DNA of 64,000 nt from Onthophagus taurus (Eukaryota; Arthropoda; Insecta; Coleoptera; Scarabaeidae), in NCBI RefSeq assembly GCF_036711975.1, contig NC_091973.1, positions 62,001 through 126,000 on the forward strand, given 5' to 3'. The position numbers and the translations under genes are program-made. How positions within the stretch are numbered: the first letter of the stretch is position 1; each line of letters begins with the position of its first letter. Shown piece after piece: positions 30,505 through 52,600 of this stretch. The notes below the pieces were generated by a model. It saw only the letters and a program-made list of their open reading frames with translations, had not been told where the DNA came from and did not search any database.

Positions 30505-30944
30505 AATGCGGTAACAGAAAGAGACGATTAAGTGGCACATCTACCTTACCTTCTTTATTGGTATATATGTATATATATATAATTATATTTTCTATGGAGA
30601 GTGGAGAGTATCGTGGTAACAAAAAAATAAAAATTAATTAAAAACGCGATAGTAAGTGGTGATTTAGTTTAGATTCGATAATTAATAAAATTAAAAGAAA
30701 AAAACGGTGGCTTCAACTTGATTTATTAGGTAAATTTTAGGAATAAACTCTCAAATAATCGGGGCTAAATCAAAACAAAAAGTTATATTAAATTATAATT
30801 CGCAAGAAAGTATTGATTACAAATTTTTTTGTGTTAAATTTTCGTTTTCATTCGAGAAATCTAAGTTGCGGTTAACTTTATTAACGAAGAGAGACAAAGT
30901 TGAGGTTATGTTCGTTCGGATACAGTGATTGATTTGTATTCGCT

Positions 30945-33900
30945 ATGGTTCTATTTGGGATGTATTTTAAACGTAAGTAATGTTCTTTTAATATTTTATT
31001 TATTAACCAAGTAAACTAAAGGATGATTTATTTTTTTTGCAAAATCCATTCGTTGTACAAAATTTTGATCAAAAAAAATGTTACCTGCTCCAACCCTGCA
31101 TTACAATAGCAGTTGTCAAAGCGTGTTAACCACTTGACTTTGAACAAATTACTGTGGATTTAAGTAAATCGGCTTTAAAGAAAATATAACGAACATAACA
31201 AAGGTTTTTTAAGAAATTCCTGGGCGATATTTTGTGCGGATGACCCGAAATTGTTGCTTTATATCGTTCGCAATTTATATGTAATCTATTATAACGGAAC
31301 AGCTGTCATTTTAAGATGATCTGCCCATGTGAATATATTTAAGATATTCGCTTTAAGATATCATTCGACAAACTGTAAGTTTTTAGAAAGCATGATCGTT
31401 ATAATTGTGTCTCAAAAACGGTTTGGGTTTTCTAAGAAAAAAAAAACTAAAAGATTTCGTATTTCCTCCTTTAAGAGTACTTCAAATGCATTTCTAGTAG
31501 AAAATCTCCACTTGCCGACTTATATAAAGCATCAAATAGCAATTAAAATCAATTTACAATCGTTTTAATAATCCAAAAAGTTCCAGGTGTAACATAACCT
31601 TTTAATTAACCTCTATTTTTATAATGGAGAAAGTATTTTTTGGGCGTTTAATATCTTATTTTTATTAATCTAACTATAACGTTAATTTTTTTTATTTGCA
31701 GTATTAGAAATGGCCGGATCAATATATCTTTCATTAAAACCCTTCGAATATAAACAATGGGCTGAGTCGATTGAAGAAGTTAATAAATGTAAATTAATTG
31801 GTAAGTTCATTTATTTAATAAAATAAGGCGAACAAATTTGTATTAGCTAAGAATGTAAAAAAGGAGTGATAAAGTGATAAGCATGCGATTAAAAAAATGC
31901 GATTTTTCATTTACAAAATTAAGGTTACTCATTAATACCATGAAGCCTAGTCATTCATGGAAGGTGTTTCATCTACTTAATTCTTTATGTTACTACCTTT
32001 ATTTCGACACAATCTTTTTGTTTAGTTTATAAACTGTAGAAAAGGTTGTAAGTTGATCTCAAGGAACCCTTGTACGACCAAAACTGTCTGTGATAGTCTG
32101 AAAATGATGATTAAAATTTGATGTTGTTGTCCTAGTATTATTATTCTCATGCGATATACAATTAGTTTATGCTTTTATACATCGTGTCATAAATGACTCG
32201 AAGTTATTAAGGGAAACCTAACCAATCATACGGTTAGACATGTAAGTCACAATAAATCTGCCCAACGTTTCATTCTAAAAGTTATTGTGGAAATAAATTT
32301 ATTGTATGTTTTAAAATGTATTTGAGTGATATATAAAATATCATAACGCTGGGGATCGCCCTATTTAAATCACTTGATTTAAAAGACGATTTTTTTTGTG
32401 TTATTTCAGATTATCTACAGCAGTGGTCGACTTTTTATATAAAAGTCTTGCCAAGTTCGACCGAAGGGTTTAAAATCTTTTTTACAATTAAAACTAACCT
32501 TCCGTTTTTGGCTCTGAGGTCCAGATGCATATATTTCAGATTCATGATTTTGTTGGCAATCGACTCAAAATGCCTTCGCGATCGCCCTTATGGACACCAT
32601 TGATCTACAAAGACGTAAATGCTTTAAGCTTTAATGGTCTTTTATTATGAAATTTAAATGTTAAATGATAATAAGAAAACGGTAAATGAATAAAATAACG
32701 AAAAGGAAACGTTATGAAACATTATCTTTCCATTAGAATACTTCCTTAATATAGTTACATGTTTTACAAAAACCTTAGATGGTTCACCATACCTAGGTCT
32801 AAACTGACCCATCATGGTCGTCCATGTTCGTTAAATTATTTTGGTCGTACAAGGGTATTAATTCTAAATACCAGACAAAACTTTATAAACAATCTGTCGA
32901 AATAGACGTAGTTACTTTCTAGAAAGGCGCATTTTTGAGATCGCCTTTATCGTAATCTAAATTTGTTAATTATTCTTTTGTTAGTAGTTGTGAAATCCTG
33001 TTGAGCACTTAACTATCACCAAATTAATTGAAAGTATTGACAAAAAGTAAGTGGAAATAATTATGGTTAATGTTGATATAACCGATTTTAACAATACAAA
33101 TCAATAGATTTCGGTGTTATCAACGTGAACGGTAATTTATATCTAGAACAAAAATCGATGTTTATGTAAATGATTATAGATTTATTTATTACAGTATTAA
33201 AAATGTCAGGATTAACATATCCTTCATTAAAACCTTTCTATAATAGACCGTGGGGTGAGTGGTTTGAAGAAGTGGATAAATGTAAAATAACTTGTAAGTA
33301 AAAAAAAATATTAAAAAAATTTTTTTTCATATTTTTATTTGTTACATCAAAATAGCTGATGATAAATGTGAAGACAAAACCGTAAATTCCTCAGTAAGCT
33401 TGCTACCTAGAAAAGACATCCTCTTGTATGGTACCTGTCCAAAAAATGATGTGCGCGTTTTGTGTCGTTGCGAGCGATGCAACAAACTTTTAATGCCCGT
33501 CGCCTATGTGAAACATATGAACGAAAAGCATGGGCCTGATCAGCATCCCCAGTCGCTCCCTGTTGTGCAACCGGGCACAAGTTTGCTCAAAAAGAAATAT
33601 TCCCATTCGAAGAATAAGAAGAAAATCAATCCACCGCCAGTTCCACCTCCCCCCTTATTTCAGGTACGTTTTAAGTGTAACCTTTCTGGAATCATTTCGA
33701 TTCGTGTTAACCTTTGATTAATTCTTCATAAATTATTTTACTTTGCAGACGTACGAAGCGCCAGTGCCGGCGTCCCCAATCCAAGCACCGGCCGCCATCT
33801 CGGCAGCCTCAACTGCAACGACAACAACGTCAGCAACAGCAGCTGCCACAGCAACGGCCGCCGCAGTCCCGTCCGGGGCGTCCGGCACGACAACCGCCGC

Positions 33901-36805
33901 CCCGACGGTCGTTTGTGCAGCAGCAACGAGCGAGGGGAAATCAGGTGCCATGCAACCGGTGCACGCTGCGAAATCAGAGCACGAGGTACTCGCTGAGGCC
34001 GCGCCAAACCCCGTCAGTCCTGCCGGGGTCGGCACGGACCCTACGGACGGCTACAGCATTGTCGTCAACATCCCGGTCTCTAACTCCACCTCCTCCTCCT
34101 TCTCCTCGTCGTCGTCTTCGTCGAAACACAAAAAGTCCAAAAAAAGCTCCAAGAAGGTCAAAGAATTCGACCCGGACAAGCACTGCGGAGTCTTTGAGGG
34201 GAATAAAGGACCGTGCTTAAGATCTATCACGTGCTCTAATCATATGGTAATTAAATTATTTTTACAGTTGCTTATCTGCCAGTACGTCGGGAACTTGTGT
34301 CCCTTTGTTTACGACATTTTTTACTATGGTTAGTCCCTGGGGGAAAAATGTTTCAAATTCATGAAAATCAATAATTGACTTGAACATCTGCAATATATAA
34401 TAACGTGAAAATTGTTGTTATAAATGTTTTTTTTTGTGACTTTCCGTTTCTGTACACGTTAAAAGTGATGTAGTCAACAGGGTGAACGATACGTTTAATT
34501 CATTTTATTATCTTCGCGTGGAAAGTTTTTAATTCAACAATTTACTCCGGAGAATTAAAATAATATTGTTCTTTCCAATCATTTCTTTTGATAAAGTTGT
34601 AATTTAGTGTAAATTAGGTATATACGCGATCGAACATTTAACATTGAAGCCAGGAACGGATTCTATCCCATCTTAATATTACTACTTTCTAACATTGTAT
34701 TATTTTAAACTTTTAGACTATAACTGCTTCTCTTATTTTGTCAAATTTACGGTTGCAGTATCTTTTTCTTCTTCCATCATAAACCATTTCTCTATGAGAT
34801 TAACGTTAAAAAAATTAATTTGCTGTCACTATCGATTATAAAGAAACCTTATTATAACTCTCCCATTTCCTCAATCAAAAAAATCATTTTCATTTCGTTA
34901 TTTCTTAAGTTTCATTCTAGATAGAATTTTTTTAACAATTCATTTGTAGTGTGTTTAATTAATTTGAAGTGATGGTGACAGTAAATTGATGAATTCGATG
35001 TAAAATAATGAAATTATTCACCCGAGTATTTAAAAAATAAATTAATTTTCCCGATTAAAGTGTAAGTCGTCGTTGTTCTGAAAAGTAACTCGTATCCAAG
35101 CGTATACCTAAAAGTTTTTTGTGTCATGAACAAGTGTAATCGCAAAGGTGTATTAAAGAATATCAAAACATAACTTTGCTGTATCAATTTTACGTTTCGT
35201 TATATTTTTATTTTCGACCGTTAAAAATTATTCCAAATAACCGCTTCTTTTTGACTTGCTCTTTTTTATAATTTCTTTTTATTAAACCACAGTGCTATCG
35301 TAAAATTAAGTTTAGAAAGATATTAAAGGTAAACCAACGCTCGTCGATTTACAAAGTACCATTAACGGACGAATTTTCTTTGTAGATACATTTGAGAAAA
35401 GCGGTGCCGGGACGTAGCAAAGACCTTCATCAGCTTATTGCCGACCATAAGGCATCTAAAGATAAAGAAACTGTTAAGCAGCCCGTATCCGGTATTCCAA
35501 AAGCAACGTCGCTCACCACTTCTTCATTGGTATGTATAATTTTTTTAAAATTTTTCTTCATAAATTTATATTAATTAACAATCCTCATCCCGTTTTTTTT
35601 TCTTTTTTAAATCATTGTGATTGTTTATTTATTAACAGCATCCCGTACAGGCTGTTCCGACGTCAATACCAACGGCTACGGCGGTTTTAACCACTGCAAC
35701 AACGGCCACAACTAAGTCCTCCGACGTACATGTCATAACGCAACCACTCCATATATCCGTACCCAGTACCGGCGTCAGTATAGTTTCATCTCAGGGAAAT
35801 AACGAAACTTGTACTTCTGTCGTTTATATGCCTATGAGTCCTGTCGCTGTTGTCTCACCCGTTCAGGTACTAACAATAAAATTTTAAGTAATTTTATCTA
35901 ATTTCTACGTGTAACTTACTTATGCGAAGTTAGCCCTCGATTAGTTGGGATTTTACATGGATAGTATTTTAATTATAAAAAGAGAACCTCTCAACAGATT
36001 TTGATTCGACGATTGATATTTTTGTGTTATTTTCGTGTACCTTCGCACTATTTTGGCGTTTTAGCGGAATTCAAAAGAGATTTCGAATCGGGCAGTTCCA
36101 CTTTCGTATTGGTGAAGGATGAAGCTTTCGAATGTGGTATCGTTCATCGAATTCCGCTGAGAAAATATATGTAATATCTAATTGGGAGCTACCTTCGCAT
36201 AGGTGACTAAATTAATGAAAAAGAATTTTTTTTCTATTTTTTCTGATTTTTTAAAATTTTTTACTTGATTTGTTTTTTTTTTTTACAAATAGCTGGGTGG
36301 ACCTATACTTCGTGTAGCATCCACGCAACCAGTTTTAAGTCCTCCATTAGCGACCCAACCGATTGTCGTGACAATACCAGTACAAACGAGCGGAGCACCT
36401 CAATATCCAGCACATCCCAAACCGCTGGTGATGTCGTCTTCATCGACAAGGAAAATTGGAGGTACGTTTGTACTGCAAAACCAGCGGATCGATCGACAAC
36501 GTAGTGAAATTCAAGTAGCTTCAAACGCCCGTCGAGCAATTTCTAATTCGTGCACGATCGTCAATACCCACCATAAGCCTAACATATTGAAGAATTCCGT
36601 TAGAAGCGGAGGAATAAAAACTGGCGGAGGAGTTAAACGACAGGCGTCTGATAAATTGGTTAACGACAATAACAAACATATTAGGTTAAGCGATGTGAAC
36701 GGGTTTATTTTGCACGCCGACGTTAGCGAAGGTGCTGAGGCACCGCAAACGGCCCAAACAAATAATTCGATACACGAGAAAGTCGCTTTTATTAATATGA
36801 AATGA
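30945..36805 (+). CDS. Atxn7: Ataxin-7-like protein, SAGA deubiquitinase module
   Basis: Ataxin-7 anchors the H2B deubiquitinase module (Non-stop/USP22) to SAGA. Exons: 30945-30972, alternative 31702-31800 or 33195-33293, then 33356-33663, 33749-34246, 35386-35529, 35639-35866 and 36293-36805. With one alternative exon it encodes 605 residues. It shows an N-terminal zinc-finger segment (CRCERCNKLLMPVAYVKHM...H), a Ser/Lys-rich stretch, and an SCA7 domain split between exons 4 and 5 (DPDKHCGVF, GPCLRSITCSNH, then HLRKAVPGRSKDLHQLIADH). Thr/Pro-rich low complexity surrounds the domain. There is no long polyglutamine. The first ATG gives MVLFGMYFK; a seven-codon open frame upstream starts at 30908. 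Introns carry a long inverted repeat and a MITE. Confidence 0.88.
31702..31800 (+). CDS. Ataxin-7 alternative exon 2a (99 nt)
   Basis: This encodes LLEMAGSIYLSLKPF then QWAESIEEVNKCK. It enters and leaves in phase 1, flanked by a good acceptor (TTTGCAG) and donor (GTAAGT). It is the same length as exon 2b at 33195-33293 and aligns without gaps at about 18 of 32 residues. It lacks the second Trp of the W-x-x-W pattern kept in 2b. Confidence 0.75.
31985..32945. repeat. Long imperfect inverted repeat between exons 2a and 2b
   Basis: The left arm (about 31988-32083, containing TATTTCGACA and CCCTTGTACGACCAAAA) is matched by the reverse complement of the right arm (about 32838-32940). About 750 bases separate the arms. 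It could be an old foldback element, or could allow pairing of the pre-mRNA between the duplicated exons. Boundaries and target duplication are unresolved. Confidence 0.55.
33195..33293 (+). CDS. Ataxin-7 alternative exon 2b (99 nt)
   Basis: This encodes LLKMSGLTYPSLKPF then PWGEWFEEVDKCK. It shares acceptor context (ACAG|TATTA), phase and length with exon 2a. PWGEW resembles the W-x-x-W pattern in the N-terminal segment of vertebrate Ataxin-7 proteins, so 2b looks like the ancestral form. Confidence 0.78.
34247..35385. other. Ataxin-7 intron 4
   Basis: This intron of 1139 bases splits the SCA7 domain. It is AT-rich, and I see no repeat family or exon in it. Confidence 0.6.
35912..36210. mobile_element. 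Probable MITE in Ataxin-7 intron 6
   Basis: Imperfect inverted ends, TAACTTACTTATGCGAAGTT on the left and TTAGTCACCTATGCGAAGGT read inward from the right, with a second inner inverted pair (GCGGAATTC...GAATTCCGC, 36063-36163). It occupies most of the intron. The family is not assigned. Confidence 0.5.
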
Positions 36806-39106: not shown

Positions 39107-40163
39107 TTCAATAGATGGAAAATAAAATGAAAGTTTCAAGAAGCAGACAAAATGATATCTACGTATCAAAAATAGAGAACGCAATTCCGGGAAAATTTTG
39201 AATTTATCGATCGGTGGTTCAAAATACGACGTATTTTAGTATTTGCCTTCAAGCTGCGGAAAGTTCTGTTATATTATTATGTTATTTAACATAATTAAAA
39301 TAGAAATTGAAGTCACAAACAATTTAAAATCATAGTTTTAATTCGATTTATGCGTAAAAACCGAATGGAAAATTCGCGCTTTTACGGGTACTTTTTATGT
39401 TTGTGTGTTAAATTGAAAGATTACCAACTTTAAGTCTTAAAGAAATATTAGAATTGTTTTAAGTTTTTGAAGTTAATACCAGTATAGTGTGCTATAAAAT
39501 CGGGTTGTGAGAAAAGAACAAAAGGAATAGTCTGTTTACCCATATATTTAGTCGAAAATCGTTTGTGTATATGCGTAATTTTAGGAAACAGATGTCCGGA
39601 TATCTCCCTATCGAAAGGTGCAATAGCAAGCGATAGTGGTGAGGAGTGTGGAACGAAGAGATAAGGTGCAAATGTTGTTGGTTCATAGCGGCACGACGCG
39701 ACGCCGCGGAGACAGACGTCGAAGGGCGAGTGGCGAACAGTGGCGGACGACGTACGACGACGAGCAACGTCGAGTACCGTTAGGAGTTTGTTGGAAGGGA
39801 GTCGGAACAATATGAGGGTGTAGGGAGCAACCCTAGCAGCTGCGCGTTACTGGCGTACGCATCACGAGGGCGCATACGAAGGCCCACCTGGTTATGCGCG
39901 CTCCCCATTCAACTCGGTATCGACCGGTCGTTCGCGTTTCGTTTTCCGCCTAAGTACAAAATCGAAATCCCTCGGATCGGCGGAAAAAGGGAACATAGGG
40001 CCGAGGCCAATCGGGATAACATAAAATTGTCGATCTGCGACGTCGTCGTCGACGATGTGCGGGCGCGAAAGTCGACGGCGTCCGTGTTTTTCGTGTGCGC
40101 GTTCAACGATAGAAGAAGCGTCGCGACGGCGGACGCCGCCGCTGTCATAAACAAAGTGCGCTC

Positions 40164-40232
40164 ATGGCGTCCGACCGGTCGTCCATTTTTGCGCGCAATC
40201 GGCCGACGATTATCGTCAATTCGACATGCTAG
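40164..40232 (+). promoter_or_regulatory. Upstream ORF in the onecut leader
   Basis: A 22-codon frame starting MASDRSSIFARN ends 28 bases before the onecut ATG. Its start context (CTCATGG) has G at +4, so it could reduce initiation at onecut. Whether it lies in the mature leader is inferred. Confidence 0.4.
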
Positions 40233-40260
40233 TGCGTGAGGTGGTTCGATTTTCGTCGCG

Positions 40261-43200
40261 ATGATGGATAATATCGGTAAGATGATCGAACACCAGGCGC
40301 TGAACGAACAGGGGGTTGATGTTAATGAAACAGTAGACGCGCAGTCCGTACGCATGAGGCTCGTACCGAGGGCCGTTGTCGAGAGGCGGTTAGTGAAGCA
40401 AGAGGAGGCCGACGGAGCCCTATCCGTCATCGTCCAGGCCCAGGAGGAGTCCAGGGACTCGGAGCTCCTTAGTCCTGGAAAACTTTCCCCGACGTCAGTC
40501 AGCGTCGCCAACATGATAGACACCACCGACTTTCGCACGTTACAACCTGAACCGACGTATCAGACGCTGACGTCCGTTAACGGGAGAATGTCGCCCCCGG
40601 GGTACAGCCCCAGTTCGTCTTATGCGACGTTGACGCCGCTACAGCCGTTGCCCCCCATCTCAACGATGTCCGACAAGTTCGCGTACGGACACGCTAGTAA
40701 TGTTACCGGTTCCTTCACCGTCATGCAAAACAACGGTTTGGGTATCGGCCTGGGTTTGGGAGTGAACGTAAACACCGCGTATGCGATGCCTAACATGGAC
40801 ATCACGCCCCCGCACAACTACTCGTCACCGGGAATGGGCATGCAACAGCAACCGAGCCCCATCAGCCCCCAAAGCGCCTATAGCCAAAACGGATTACCCT
40901 CGCCTCAGAAGAGCATGTCGCCCCCGAGTTACGATTCCCCGTACGGGACTCAACGTGAGCTCGTAGGAAGACAACTTCAGAGTCCTCAACTCAGCCCTCC
41001 GTCGGCATCTTTGAACTCGCCCGGTGGTAGTTTGGTAACTAGTTTTAGTGGTGCAACTCTGAACGGACTGACACTTCAACACCATCCACCGACGTTGGTC
41101 CAAATCGCAGCACCTCCTCAAAGGGAATGTTCGCCCTCGCCGCCAGTTCTAAGTCTCCAGCAACAACCCGCGCAACAACAGCAACAACAGGTCCAACAAC
41201 AAAACCAACAACAACAACAGTCCGTTCAGCAGATTCCTGCCAAAGGATCCTCGCAGAACGCACTCAACGTGACCACGATCTCAACGGACGTCGAGGAAAT
41301 TAACACCAAAGAATTAGCGCAAAGGATCAGCGCCGAATTGAAGCGATATAGTATACCGCAGGCCATCTTCGCCCAAAGGGTTTTATGCAGATCCCAAGGG
41401 ACGTTATCGGACCTGTTGAGAAACCCGAAACCGTGGTCGAAACTCAAATCGGGACGCGAGACCTTCAGGAGGATGTGGAAGTGGCTTCAAGAACCCGAAT
41501 TTCAAAGGATGTCCGCCCTGAGGCTTGCAGGTCAGTACTTTTTGTGTTCCCTCAAACCTCGCCTTCGACAAGAGGGGTGCCGAATAAGGGCTCTTACAAA
41601 ACGAGTTTTCTCTTGTATTATTTACCTTTCTTTTCTATTATACATACTCTTACACTTTATTATTGCACAAACGATCTACTTAACATTAGAGTTTGGATAT
41701 GCTTTCCTTATTTTTGGCCCACACTAAACGACATACGTCCGTAAATCGTCCCCCTTCACATTTTGAGAAACCTAAAAAAAGTAAAAAAAAAGGGCAACAG
41801 GAAAACTACTACGGTAAACCGTGAAGCCGCGCGCTTTATTACTAATTTCTCGCAATTTATTTATTGTTTGTTCAATTTATTTTTGTCCCCCCCTTTCCTT
41901 CTTTTTGTTTCTCTATTTTAATTTTTTACGCTTCTTCCGGGCCGATGTAGGATTGAGTTATCGATGGAGCAAATCGAAAAACGCACGTGATCGTAGTCTA
42001 TATAGGTAAAGTATTGATTTTCACTGACGTTGATAATATTCTCATCCCCACTCAAACCTCTCTACCCTTACGACGTCACGAGTGGAACTTTTAAATTTGT
42101 TTGTATTTCAATTTCAGTGGCGCACCCAGAATACAAATCTCGAGGCTGTATAATAATATAAATATAAAGAATTATTCTTACTTTGCCAAAACTTTTTATG
42201 TCAATAATAGATTTTGGGTGCTCTTCTGAATTTTATAAGATAAAAATAAAATAATGAGAAATAAAAAATGCCGAGAGATGATACACGGATGAAAAGTATA
42301 TCCAAATACTGTGACCAGAGAGATCTCTAACGTTGTTATTTTAGGACCGAGGATTGTCTTAGCCCTATTGCTTAGTGGTTACTGTTGTTGTTGACTACTC
42401 TCTTGTTTTCATTGCAGACTGCCAGATGAGCAATGTAAACGTGAGGGCAGTCAACCCGAATAGGAGAAAATCACCCTCATCAACGTGCTTGTGAGTTATA
42501 TCTGTCTCTCTGTGGAATGTATTAAACGAAAATTTAAACTAATACTGCATGTAATCATTTATCTGTGTTTCCCTAATGGCGATAACGATGGGTATATCCA
42601 AACTCTAATAACCAAATAGCTGATGGCAGTGCATGAACCACGATGAGGACGCTTTAACTTTTTTTGAGTGAGCATGGCTCTAAATATGCTTCAAATTAAT
42701 TAAAAAATATTAACAATTTCCTACTCCATTAAATGTTACCACCTCATAAAGATTGTCACAATATTCTTTTAGTTCGAACCACGGAGACCTGCTACAAGCT
42801 CCTATGACTCACGAACTCGCGGGAATGTCGGAAAATTCCACCTAATTTGTAAAATCGATATATTGATTTCACTTGCAAGTCAGGCATTTCAATGTTGTAC
42901 GCTATCCTTTCCTGCACTTTAATGTCTGTTCCCCCAACGAAACCCGACCTTACATTTTTATTTCGTTTCTTTTTGACTACCTACTTTTTAGAAGTCGAAA
43001 CTTATTCAGACATTAAAAAAATTCATTTATTTACTTTTTTGTCAAATCAAATTTCTCTCTTTAAAATTAGTTATTAACTTAATTCTTTTACGCTATTTAA
43101 TTACTAACAAATTTTATTAATTTTTATTTTTACTAACTTAACCGTAATTAAGATCAAATTGAAATTGAAATGTGACAATTATTAGTTTGAGGTGAAAATA

Positions 43201-49599: not shown

Positions 49600-49643
49600 T
49601 GTTGTAGTAGTAAAGTCAGTGTACGAACATTCCTCCACATAGT

Positions 49644-52600
49644 ATGGCGTCGGTCGCCGCTTGGCTGCCATTTGCGCGGGCGGCGGCCATAGGATGGGTT
49701 CCCATAGCCACCCATCCGCTCCCACCGCCGCCCGTTCCCAAGGATCGTCGGAAAGCCGACGACGAAAAGCTGCTCATAAACGTCTCGGGACGAAGGTTTG
49801 AGACGTGGAGGAACACGTTGGAGAAGTACCCTGACACTCTGCTCGGTTCTAACGAGCGAGAATTCTTCTACGACGAAGATTGTAAAGAGTACTTTTTCGA
49901 TAGAGATCCGGATATATTTCGACACATCCTCAATTATTATAGAACTGGAAAATTGCACTATCCGAAACATGAGTGTTTAACTAGCTACGACGAAGAGCTA
50001 GCATTTTTCGGCATTCTTCCGGACGTAATCGGCGACTGCTGTTACGAAGACTACAGGGACAGAAAACGAGAAAATGCAGAAAGACTCATGGATGACAAAT
50101 TATCGGAAAACGGCGACCAAAATCTTCAACAACTAACTAATATTAGGCAGAAAATGTGGAGGGCATTTGAAAATCCTCACACTTCAACAGCGGCGTTGGT
50201 CTTTTACTATGTCACCGGATTCTTTATTGCCGTATCGGTGATGGCAAACGTCGTGGAAACGGTTCCGTGCGGAAAACGGCCTGGTCGAGCGGGTCCTCTT
50301 CCGTGTGGTGAACGTTATAAAATAGTTTTCTTCTGTTTGGACACGGCCTGCGTAATGATCTTTACCGCCGAGTATCTACTCAGGTTATTCGCGGCCCCGA
50401 ATCGGTACAAATTCGTTCGTAGCGTGATGAGCATCATAGACGTTGTTGCCATAATGCCGTATTATATTGGCCTCGGCATCACCGATAACGACGACGTTTC
50501 CGGGGCCTTTGTCACTCTTCGCGTGTTTCGCGTTTTTAGGATCTTCAAGTTCTCGCGCCACTCCCAAGGTTTGCGCATCCTCGGTTACACGCTCAAGTCT
50601 TGTGCTTCCGAGCTCGGCTTCCTCGTCTTTTCGCTAGCCATGGCCATCATCATCTTCGCCACCGTTATGTTTTATGCGGAGAAAAACGTTGGTGGCACAC
50701 CTTTCACTTCAATACCCGCCGCTTTTTGGTATACTATAGTCACTATGACTACTTTAGGGTAAGGAAGGATTTTTTAAATTATCCCTAATTATTAAGGTTT
50801 TATTTTCTGTTTTTTAATAGTTATGGGGATATGGTTCCGGGGACTATAGCGGGAAAAATCGTCGGTGGAGTTTGTTCTCTTAGCGGCGTCTTGGTAATCG
50901 CTCTTCCCGTTCCGGTTATTGTTTCGAATTTTAGCAGAATTTATCATCAGAATCAAAGAGCCGATAAACGAAAAGCCCAAAGGGTGAGTAACAAGATTAC
51001 AACATTGAGTATTGTAAACAATGGAGAGCTGTATTCGACGTCGAGATATTATATATAATGGTTGTTTAGCAAGATTAACTTAAGCACCTTTCCTTTGCCA
51101 GAATAATATAAATTGTATGCTCGAATCAGTTCCAAATTACCACCATCAGGAGCGATGACAGGTTTATTAACGTCAAAGAATGTATTTTCACTTATTAGAC
51201 TTATAGTTATTTGATCTTGAATGAAAACCGTAAAAAAAAAAATAACAAATATTTAAATATTAACACGGTATCAAAAAAAAATGTTTTAGAATCGTAAAAA
51301 TTTTTTCAAACATTTTTGCCTACACTAAAGTGTTTTTGGCAATAAAACTTTTATGCCACGACTGCGTTCGGGTAAGCCTATTTTATGTGTTTCTTGTTTG
51401 TAACTCTAAATAATAATGGTTGACATGAAGAGAATAGCGTAGGAGTTACGAGCCAACGTCCAAACTCTTTACATACAACAACAATCCCGATCAATCGAAT
51501 CCATTCATGACGAAACTTTAAATACAAACTTCAATTCAAATCGGTTTTCGCGTAAAAATTATTTTTAAACTCGTTAAATTTTCAAGTCGGCTAAATTTCG
51601 TTTCGATTCGAAAATAAGTTGTTGTGTTTAGACGGGAATTAAAAAGAAACGAAGAAAAGAAAAAGATAATAGCAAGTCAACGTTACATTGTTGTATATTT
51701 TTATTGAACTAAAACTAGAACTAACACTATACCCAGAACTGGAATCTCGTCGGAATCTCTGGAGCCGTCTTAACAGACGTACGGCTAAATCCGAATGTTT
51801 CTACTTCTTGGTCTAGTGTTAGTTCGAGCATTTGCCAATTTAAAGTGTGAAATAGTAGTTGCTTGTGCACCTCTTCCCGGGATGTAGCAATCCTCTTAGA
51901 TTCTACCGTCCTTGGGTGTGAGATATAAAATTAAATACACATAGAGCTTTCGTGATCACGTAAAAATAAAACAAAGCGACCGGAACTTAATTTCGGCGTT
52001 AGTTTAGGACGACATCGAGAGAAATCGATTTTTTATTATTATTTTGATTTATTATTATTAGTCAAGAAACTGCCTGCTCTAAAATCCCGATAACAACATG
52101 AACCGATCCTCAATTTATACGAACGCTTCTATAGAAATGAATATCTACATAAATCTCGCGTGTTGATCTTGTGCCAACTTTTATGAGTCACGTGTTTTGT
52201 TTTTTCTTCATGAATCCAAGTTGTTTACAAAATTTTGCTTTGTTATACAAATCTCTATTGATTCTACGCTTTGTAACCGAAAGATTTAAAGGAGATTTAA
52301 AATTAAAATAATTTTACAAATAATTTTTTTTTAATTATAGAAAGCAAGATTAGCAAGAATCCGTATTGCAAAGGCATCATCTGGAGCTGCATTTGTCAGC
52401 AAGAAAAAGGCTGCGGAAGCTCGATTGGCAGCCCAAGAATCTGGAATTGAGTTGGACGATAATTATCGGGAGGAAGACATTTTCGAGTTGCAACACCATC
52501 ATCTTTTGAGGTGTTTGGAGAAGACGACTGATCGCGAATTTGTTGAACTGGAGGTTCCTTATAACGGACATCCAAAACGACCTGGATCGCCATCGCCGTT

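Follow-up and report, generated by a model that had tools for sequence, protein, structure and literature searches.

The gene that we identify from its translation as ATXN7/Sgf73, a SAGA subunit, carries in Onthophagus taurus a true tandem duplication of its second exon. The two copies, termed 2a and 2b, have intact splice sites, are neutral with respect to the reading frame, and differ in the motif by which this part of the protein is expected to bind a deubiquitinase. We infer that 2a is spliced into transcripts, that the copies serve as alternatives rather than being included together, and that the choice between them affects binding. In the reading that we rank first, above a drifting 2a and above the inclusion of both exons, 2b would anchor the deubiquitinase and 2a would do so weakly or not at all; in our judgement, it has about an even chance of being correct. 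The features are listed below by their positions in the window, i.e., the whole 64,000-nt stretch of DNA that was analysed.

30945..30972, + strand: exon 1, coding part; 28 nt from the first in-frame ATG, ending in phase 1; donor gtaagtaa; in-frame stop upstream
31702..31800, + strand: exon 2a; 99 nt, phase 1-1; product (L)LEMAGSIYLSLKPFEYKQWAESIEEVNKCKLI; USP22/Ubp8-binding motif incomplete (no Pro/Ser, no second Trp)
32066..32856, no strand assigned: transposon-like insert within the intron that separates 2a from 2b; perfect 18-nt inverted repeats at 32066-32083 and 32839-32856; outside the proposed mechanism
33195..33293, + strand: exon 2b; 99 nt, phase 1-1; product (L)LKMSGLTYPSLKPFYNRPWGEWFEEVDKCKIT; P-W-x-x-W present
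33356..33663, + strand: exon 3; N-terminal zinc-finger region; phmmer alignment to human ATXN7 (7ktr_N)
33749..34246, + strand: exon 4; low-complexity region, then the start of the SCA7 domain (translation, PF08313)
35386..35529, + strand: exon 5; remainder of the SCA7 domain (translation, PF08313)
35639..35866, + strand: exon 6; from splice sites and open frame
36293..36805, + strand: exon 7; last coding exon with TGA at its end; from splice site and open frame

The identity of the gene was indicated by two parts of the protein. The SCA7 domain (PF08313), spanning exons 4-5, was recognised with E = 8.9e-23 and 80.4 bits against a cut-off of 23, and human ataxin-7 (2kkr_A) matched it with E = 4.6e-14. 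Since a genome search with the SCA7 family gave one match only, exon 4 of this gene (all four candidates were scored), ATXN7 looks single-copy in the assembly. The N-terminal part, formed by exons 2 and 3, had no Pfam match in either the 2a or the 2b form. In the phmmer comparison with the N-terminus of human ATXN7 (7ktr_N), 2b and exon 3 aligned with E = 2.6e-5, residues 7-95 of the query pairing with residues 85-176 of the chain; the alignment of the 2a form began later, at the Trp, with the register one turn off (E = 4.5e-5). Scanned with the exon 3 peptide, a prokaryote contig collection gave 102 pattern matches, none of which was confirmed, as expected for prokaryotes. Elsewhere in the window, we observed an open frame at 40240-41727, within a GC-rich stretch (0.51 at 40001-42000), and another at 49614-50762. 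Judged by eye, the former resembles a Onecut CUT-domain protein and the latter a Shal-type potassium channel.

Re-checking of the sequence bore out the coordinates, the 99-nt lengths and the 1-1 phases that an earlier note on this DNA had given for 2a and 2b, and the splice sites agree with them. Both exons are bounded by GT-AG sites, with cag ahead and gtaagt behind. The copies align without gaps, as the note had stated, and 78 of their 99 nucleotides are identical. Its count of about 18 alike among 32 residues needs amending: 18 of 33 codons specify the same residue when the split codon, which draws its first base from exon 1, is included, and 17 of 32 inside the exon. The claim of frame neutrality held, with translated proteins of 605 aa (2a alone), 605 aa (2b alone), 638 aa (both) and 572 aa (neither), each containing the terminal stop codon only. 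The runner-up among ungapped 99-nt matches to 2b, on both strands of the window, reached 51/99 (mean ≈ 28, SD 4.7). When the whole assembly (290.8 Mb, 33 contigs) was searched at the protein level in six frames, using 2b and part of exon 3 as the query and accepting E values up to 10, three matches were returned, all at this locus, of which 2a was the weakest (E = 0.02). Thus, a third copy was found neither in the window by the ungapped scan nor genome-wide by the six-frame protein search. At the DNA level, a search with either exon recovered just that exon and not its 78% identical sister, so that further diverged copies could escape such searches.

What the exon encodes can be read against the zf-UBP-binding motif described in PMC13376213. 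There, the zf-UBP domain of USP22 is shown to bind the ATXN7L1 peptide VPSPEAFLGKPWSSWI, the motif is given as [FM][AL]Gx[PS]WxxW, and the Trp residues are key to binding, which was abolished in the combined W47A/S48G/S49G/W50A mutant of ATXN7L1. The same text places residues 30-36 of yeast Sgf73 (DSWKSLM) at the corresponding position on the zf-UBP of Ubp8. In exon 2b, the stretch PSLKPFYNRPWGEWFEEV contains PWGEW, which fits the [PS]-W-x-x-W core, and has F at the first motif position. Positions 2-3 are Y-N, not [AL]-G, so the core fits and the full vertebrate motif does not. In exon 2a, the stretch LSLKPFEYKQWAESIEEV contains QWAES, with Q instead of [PS] and S instead of the second Trp, and departs from the core. 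The contrast between PWGEW and QWAES, drawn in the earlier note from the loss of the second Trp in 2a, is therefore correct, and 2a additionally has no Pro/Ser before the first Trp. Judged by its likeness to the measured motif, exon 2 specifies the stretch through which ATXN7 docks on the zf-UBP of USP22 (Non-stop in the fly); the anchoring role that the note had assigned to it is thereby tied to a measured motif (PMC13376213).

The two copies also differ in how closely they resemble the vertebrate peptides. Over the nine-residue core, the BLOSUM62 score against ATXN7L1 was 36 for 2b and 13 for 2a, and against ATXN7 it was 18 and -2, respectively. Exon 2b has the vertebrate residue at the [PS] position, at the second Trp, and at the Pro before Ser (PS in 2b, LS in 2a). 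Exon 2a has the ATXN7L1 residue, absent from 2b, at the Lys before Pro/Gln and at the Ile after the second Trp position, both less critical. This comparison therefore suggests that, of the two copies, 2b lies nearer the ancestral state at the motif, though not everywhere. We must also note that the aromatic pair of 2a may have moved one helical turn up (Y-x-x-W, in EYKQW) and not been lost. With the register of 2a moved by one turn, the core scored 6 for ATXN7 and 5 for ATXN7L1, which beats the homologous register for ATXN7 and falls below it for ATXN7L1.

We propose that the second exon of the gene was copied in tandem fairly recently and that both copies would now be alternative. Exon 2b would provide the ancestral N-terminus, with F-x-x-x-P-W-x-x-W docking on the zf-UBP of USP22/Non-stop and tethering the deubiquitinase module to SAGA. 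Exon 2a would swap in F-x-x-x-Q-W-x-x-S, for which docking is expected to be weak or nil. A transcript with 2b, or with 2a and 2b, would then encode an ATXN7 that holds the deubiquitinase, whereas a transcript with 2a alone, or with neither, would encode one that does not hold it firmly. The 2a-only form could shift the enzyme from SAGA to other partners. Alternative use is supported by the 78/99 identity, the equal length and phases, the GT-AG sites and the four open combinations, and the division of roles by the dependence of USP22 binding on the Trp residues and by the higher BLOSUM62 scores of 2b. PMC3228551 recognises candidate mutually exclusive exons by similar length, conserved splice sites and frame, and homology, and the 2a/2b pair has every one of these properties (length, splice-site type, frame and phase, homology). 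This agreement supports alternative use as well. In the X-chromosome survey of the fly reported there, neighbouring exons with such features that are not exclusive were rare, and of 65 internal exons that it predicted, 26 had an existing annotation as mutually exclusive. A complete exon-encoded SAGA switch, in which 2b would keep the enzyme attached and 2a would shed the docking peptide and leave active Non-stop free for other substrates, seems to us rather unlikely.

Alternative use is weakened by the divergence of the two copies, which is what simple drift of 2a would produce. The 21 nucleotide differences fall on codon positions 1, 2 and 3 in the ratio 8:8:5, with the third-position excess absent. 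The pairwise Nei-Gojobori estimates were dN 0.234 and dS 0.242, giving a dN/dS of 0.97 (bootstrap 0.35-4.9, with 0.9% of the replicates below 0.3 and 10% below 0.5), a pairwise value that cannot tell adaptive change from relaxed constraint. The 2a protein has changed about as fast as the silent sites. This check of the 2a/2b pair thus gave no sign of codon constraint on 2a, the absence of which in relatives the earlier note had named as refuting its reading. Of the 16 degenerate residues shared by the copies, 14 use the identical codon, compared with 8.8 expected (P = 0.003) when codon usage is taken from seven open stretches within the window, one of the 16 sharing its first base by construction. 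As the silent sites have diverged little, the copy is not old, and the duplicate looks fairly young. Such a pattern would be expected if constraint on 2a had relaxed or if the divergence were adaptive, and not under long joint conservation; 2a would be an alternative exon of recent origin that has diverged, or else one whose drift continues.

The strongest competitor is accordingly a 2a that is decaying or non-functional, intact only through recency and rarely or never included, with the gene running on 2b alone. The dN/dS near 1, the codon-position pattern and the missing docking residues all favour it, and the low silent divergence (14/16 identical codons) implies little time for the exon to break. 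Nevertheless, after up to 21 changes, 2a has no stop and no indel, and keeps a consensus donor and acceptor. We estimated the joint probability, under neutrality, that the frame stays open, no indel arises and nine splice bases go untouched, in a model that assumes indel ratios of 0.1 and 0.2, a transition bias and an A+T bias. If 2a took all 21 changes, this chance was 0.003 (0.0004 at the doubled indel rate), but it rose to 0.06 (0.02) for 10 changes and 0.11 (0.05) for 8. These values are post hoc, since it was the intact look of the pair that led to its choice, and they carry little weight if 2a accounts for only some of the changes. The intact frame and splice sites are thus modest evidence against pure drift, and we consider a decaying 2a unlikely, though worth keeping in view.

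A further competitor is that both exons are normally included, or that 2a is an optional cassette upstream of 2b, so that the longer N-terminus would retain the 2b docking stretch. It is compatible with the open, in-frame 638-aa protein and with the consensus donors and acceptors of both exons, and it gains from the lack of a visible exclusion mechanism, which in turn weakens alternative use. None of the devices looked for at the locus (short intron, frame, splice-site incompatibility, competing RNA pairing) was visible. Protein-regulated exclusion would leave no such sequence mark. Against forced exclusion, the form with both exons is in frame, the intron between them measures 1394 nt, and 2a and 2b are both ordinary GT-AG exons. 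RNA pairing was tested for eight pairs with 60 shuffles each, and six were unremarkable. Intron 1 paired with intron 3 at z = -2.2 (1/60 shuffles), in A/T-rich sequence, and the only clear result came from the two ends of the transposon-like insert. However, the aligned human protein has one such stretch, and on the fly X chromosome, neighbouring homologous exons with these features that are not exclusive occurred in just 6 of 1705 genes (PMC3228551). We regard joint inclusion as improbable, and more so than a decaying 2a.

The ends of the insert can pair at -41 kcal/mol, compared with a shuffle mean of -20 (0/60 shuffles). Paired ends are the normal build of such elements, and for this reason, the pairing is no evidence of regulated splicing. 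We rejected a splicing hairpin formed by the 18/18-nt inverted repeat, as the 18-mer recurs in the genome and the inner segments are dispersed repeats, which points to transposon-like ends. The genome contains the terminal 18-mer exactly at five places, including the two at this locus, and with one mismatch at 16; counts at up to three mismatches were uninformative (125 forward and 157 reverse, where the reversed control pattern gave 721 and 414). For the segment 32110-32201 of the insert, all five distant matches among those listed lay within 90 nt of such an 18-mer. A dispersed repeat nested at ~ 32427-32618 had at least 35 further matches in its left part and at least 38 in its right part, with 80-98% identity among the matches listed. 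A longer palindrome was also sought across the intron with gaps allowed, and 41/300 shuffles reached the score obtained.

The extent of the copied piece bears on whether the duplication is genuine. The ungapped repeat match covered 139 nt, pairing 31688-31826 with 33181-33319 at 76% identity. In 10-nt bins beyond the exon, identity was 7/10 and 5/10 upstream, and 7/10, 5/10 and 5/10 downstream, and then dropped, this near-edge similarity being partly due to the splice signal common to both copies and to A/T richness. A gapped local alignment of the copies reached ~ 260 nt further upstream. When the flanks were aligned on their own, shuffles scored at least as well in 174/200 cases for the upstream 60 nt, 163/200 for the upstream 100 nt minus the last 20, 25/200 for the upstream 400 nt and 193/200 for the downstream 62 nt; for the whole introns, the figure was 74/200. 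Because silent divergence is only ~ 0.24, copied flanks should remain recognisable. That they align no better than shuffles therefore suggests that the copied piece was roughly the exon with its splice signals, or that the exon has been held more alike than its surroundings. We also observed that similarity fades ~ 20-30 nt past the exon edges despite the little silent divergence, as though the exon had been copied almost without intron. An assembly artefact or uncollapsed haplotype, for which two similar stretches 1.5 kb apart and nothing else would speak, was rejected as very improbable, since the 78% identity of the exon is gone ~ 20-30 nt outside its edges and the flanks align no better than shuffles, unlike two haplotypes.

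The position of the start codon may alter the role of exon 1. In-frame ATGs are present in exon 1 at 30945 and 30960, and each copy of exon 2 contains an ATG of its own, in the contexts AGAAATGG and AAAAATGT. By the usual context rules, the exon-2 ATGs presumably stand in the better context. Exon 1 may instead be 5' UTR if translation starts at the exon-2 ATGs. Reading by eye, we noticed a short upstream open reading frame at 30908-30928 (ATG to TGA), directly ahead of the exon 1 ATG, which could dampen initiation or redirect the start to the exon-2 ATGs.

The human member of the ATXN7 family is the cause of spinocerebellar ataxia 7. Exons duplicated in tandem and used as alternatives are a familiar phenomenon. 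In the fly, as reported in PMC6693919, Non-stop is anchored to SAGA by the amino terminus of Ataxin-7; when Atxn7 is missing, the module comes free in active form and acts as a gain of function. If alternative use is true, a splice choice altering the docking peptide would be a natural, reversible setting of the amount of SAGA-bound deubiquitinase; if 2a is unused, the locus is a young exon duplication only. A literature search, mostly outside subscription journals, found no report of an ATXN7 exon-2 duplication or of mutually exclusive ATXN7 exons in the titles and abstract openings of the papers listed, and in the SCA7 review PMC8987156, isoform or splice terms occur once, in the reference list. 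For human ATXN7, PMC8194025 mentions splice variants whose tissue profiles differ.

The pair resembles the tandem mutually exclusive exons of animals (PMC3228551, PMC6071210 and PMC9741552), which are likewise neighbouring homologous exons of the same length, phase and splice-site type. It differs from them in being a candidate pair, recognised from sequence alone, without convincing competing pairing. The 2a/2b copy also looks young, whereas most human tandem mutually exclusive exon events are ancient, according to PMC9741552. At the level of the peptide, 2b has F-x-x-x-P-W-x-x-W in the location that corresponds to the motif of ATXN7, ATXN7L1 and ATXN7L2 (PMC13376213), directly before the N-terminal zinc finger. 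In 2b, Y-N takes the place of the vertebrate [AL]-G, and 2a departs at [PS] and at the second Trp. The DSWKSLM segment of yeast Sgf73 on the zf-UBP of Ubp8 provides a W-x-x-(large hydrophobic) core in the position seen in 2b, the second core position being Leu in yeast, Trp in 2b and Ser in 2a. In humans, docking-peptide variety is spread over three paralogous proteins, ATXN7, ATXN7L1 and ATXN7L2, each encoded by its own gene and with different docking peptides (PMC13376213), whereas in O. taurus it may be provided by two exons of one gene.
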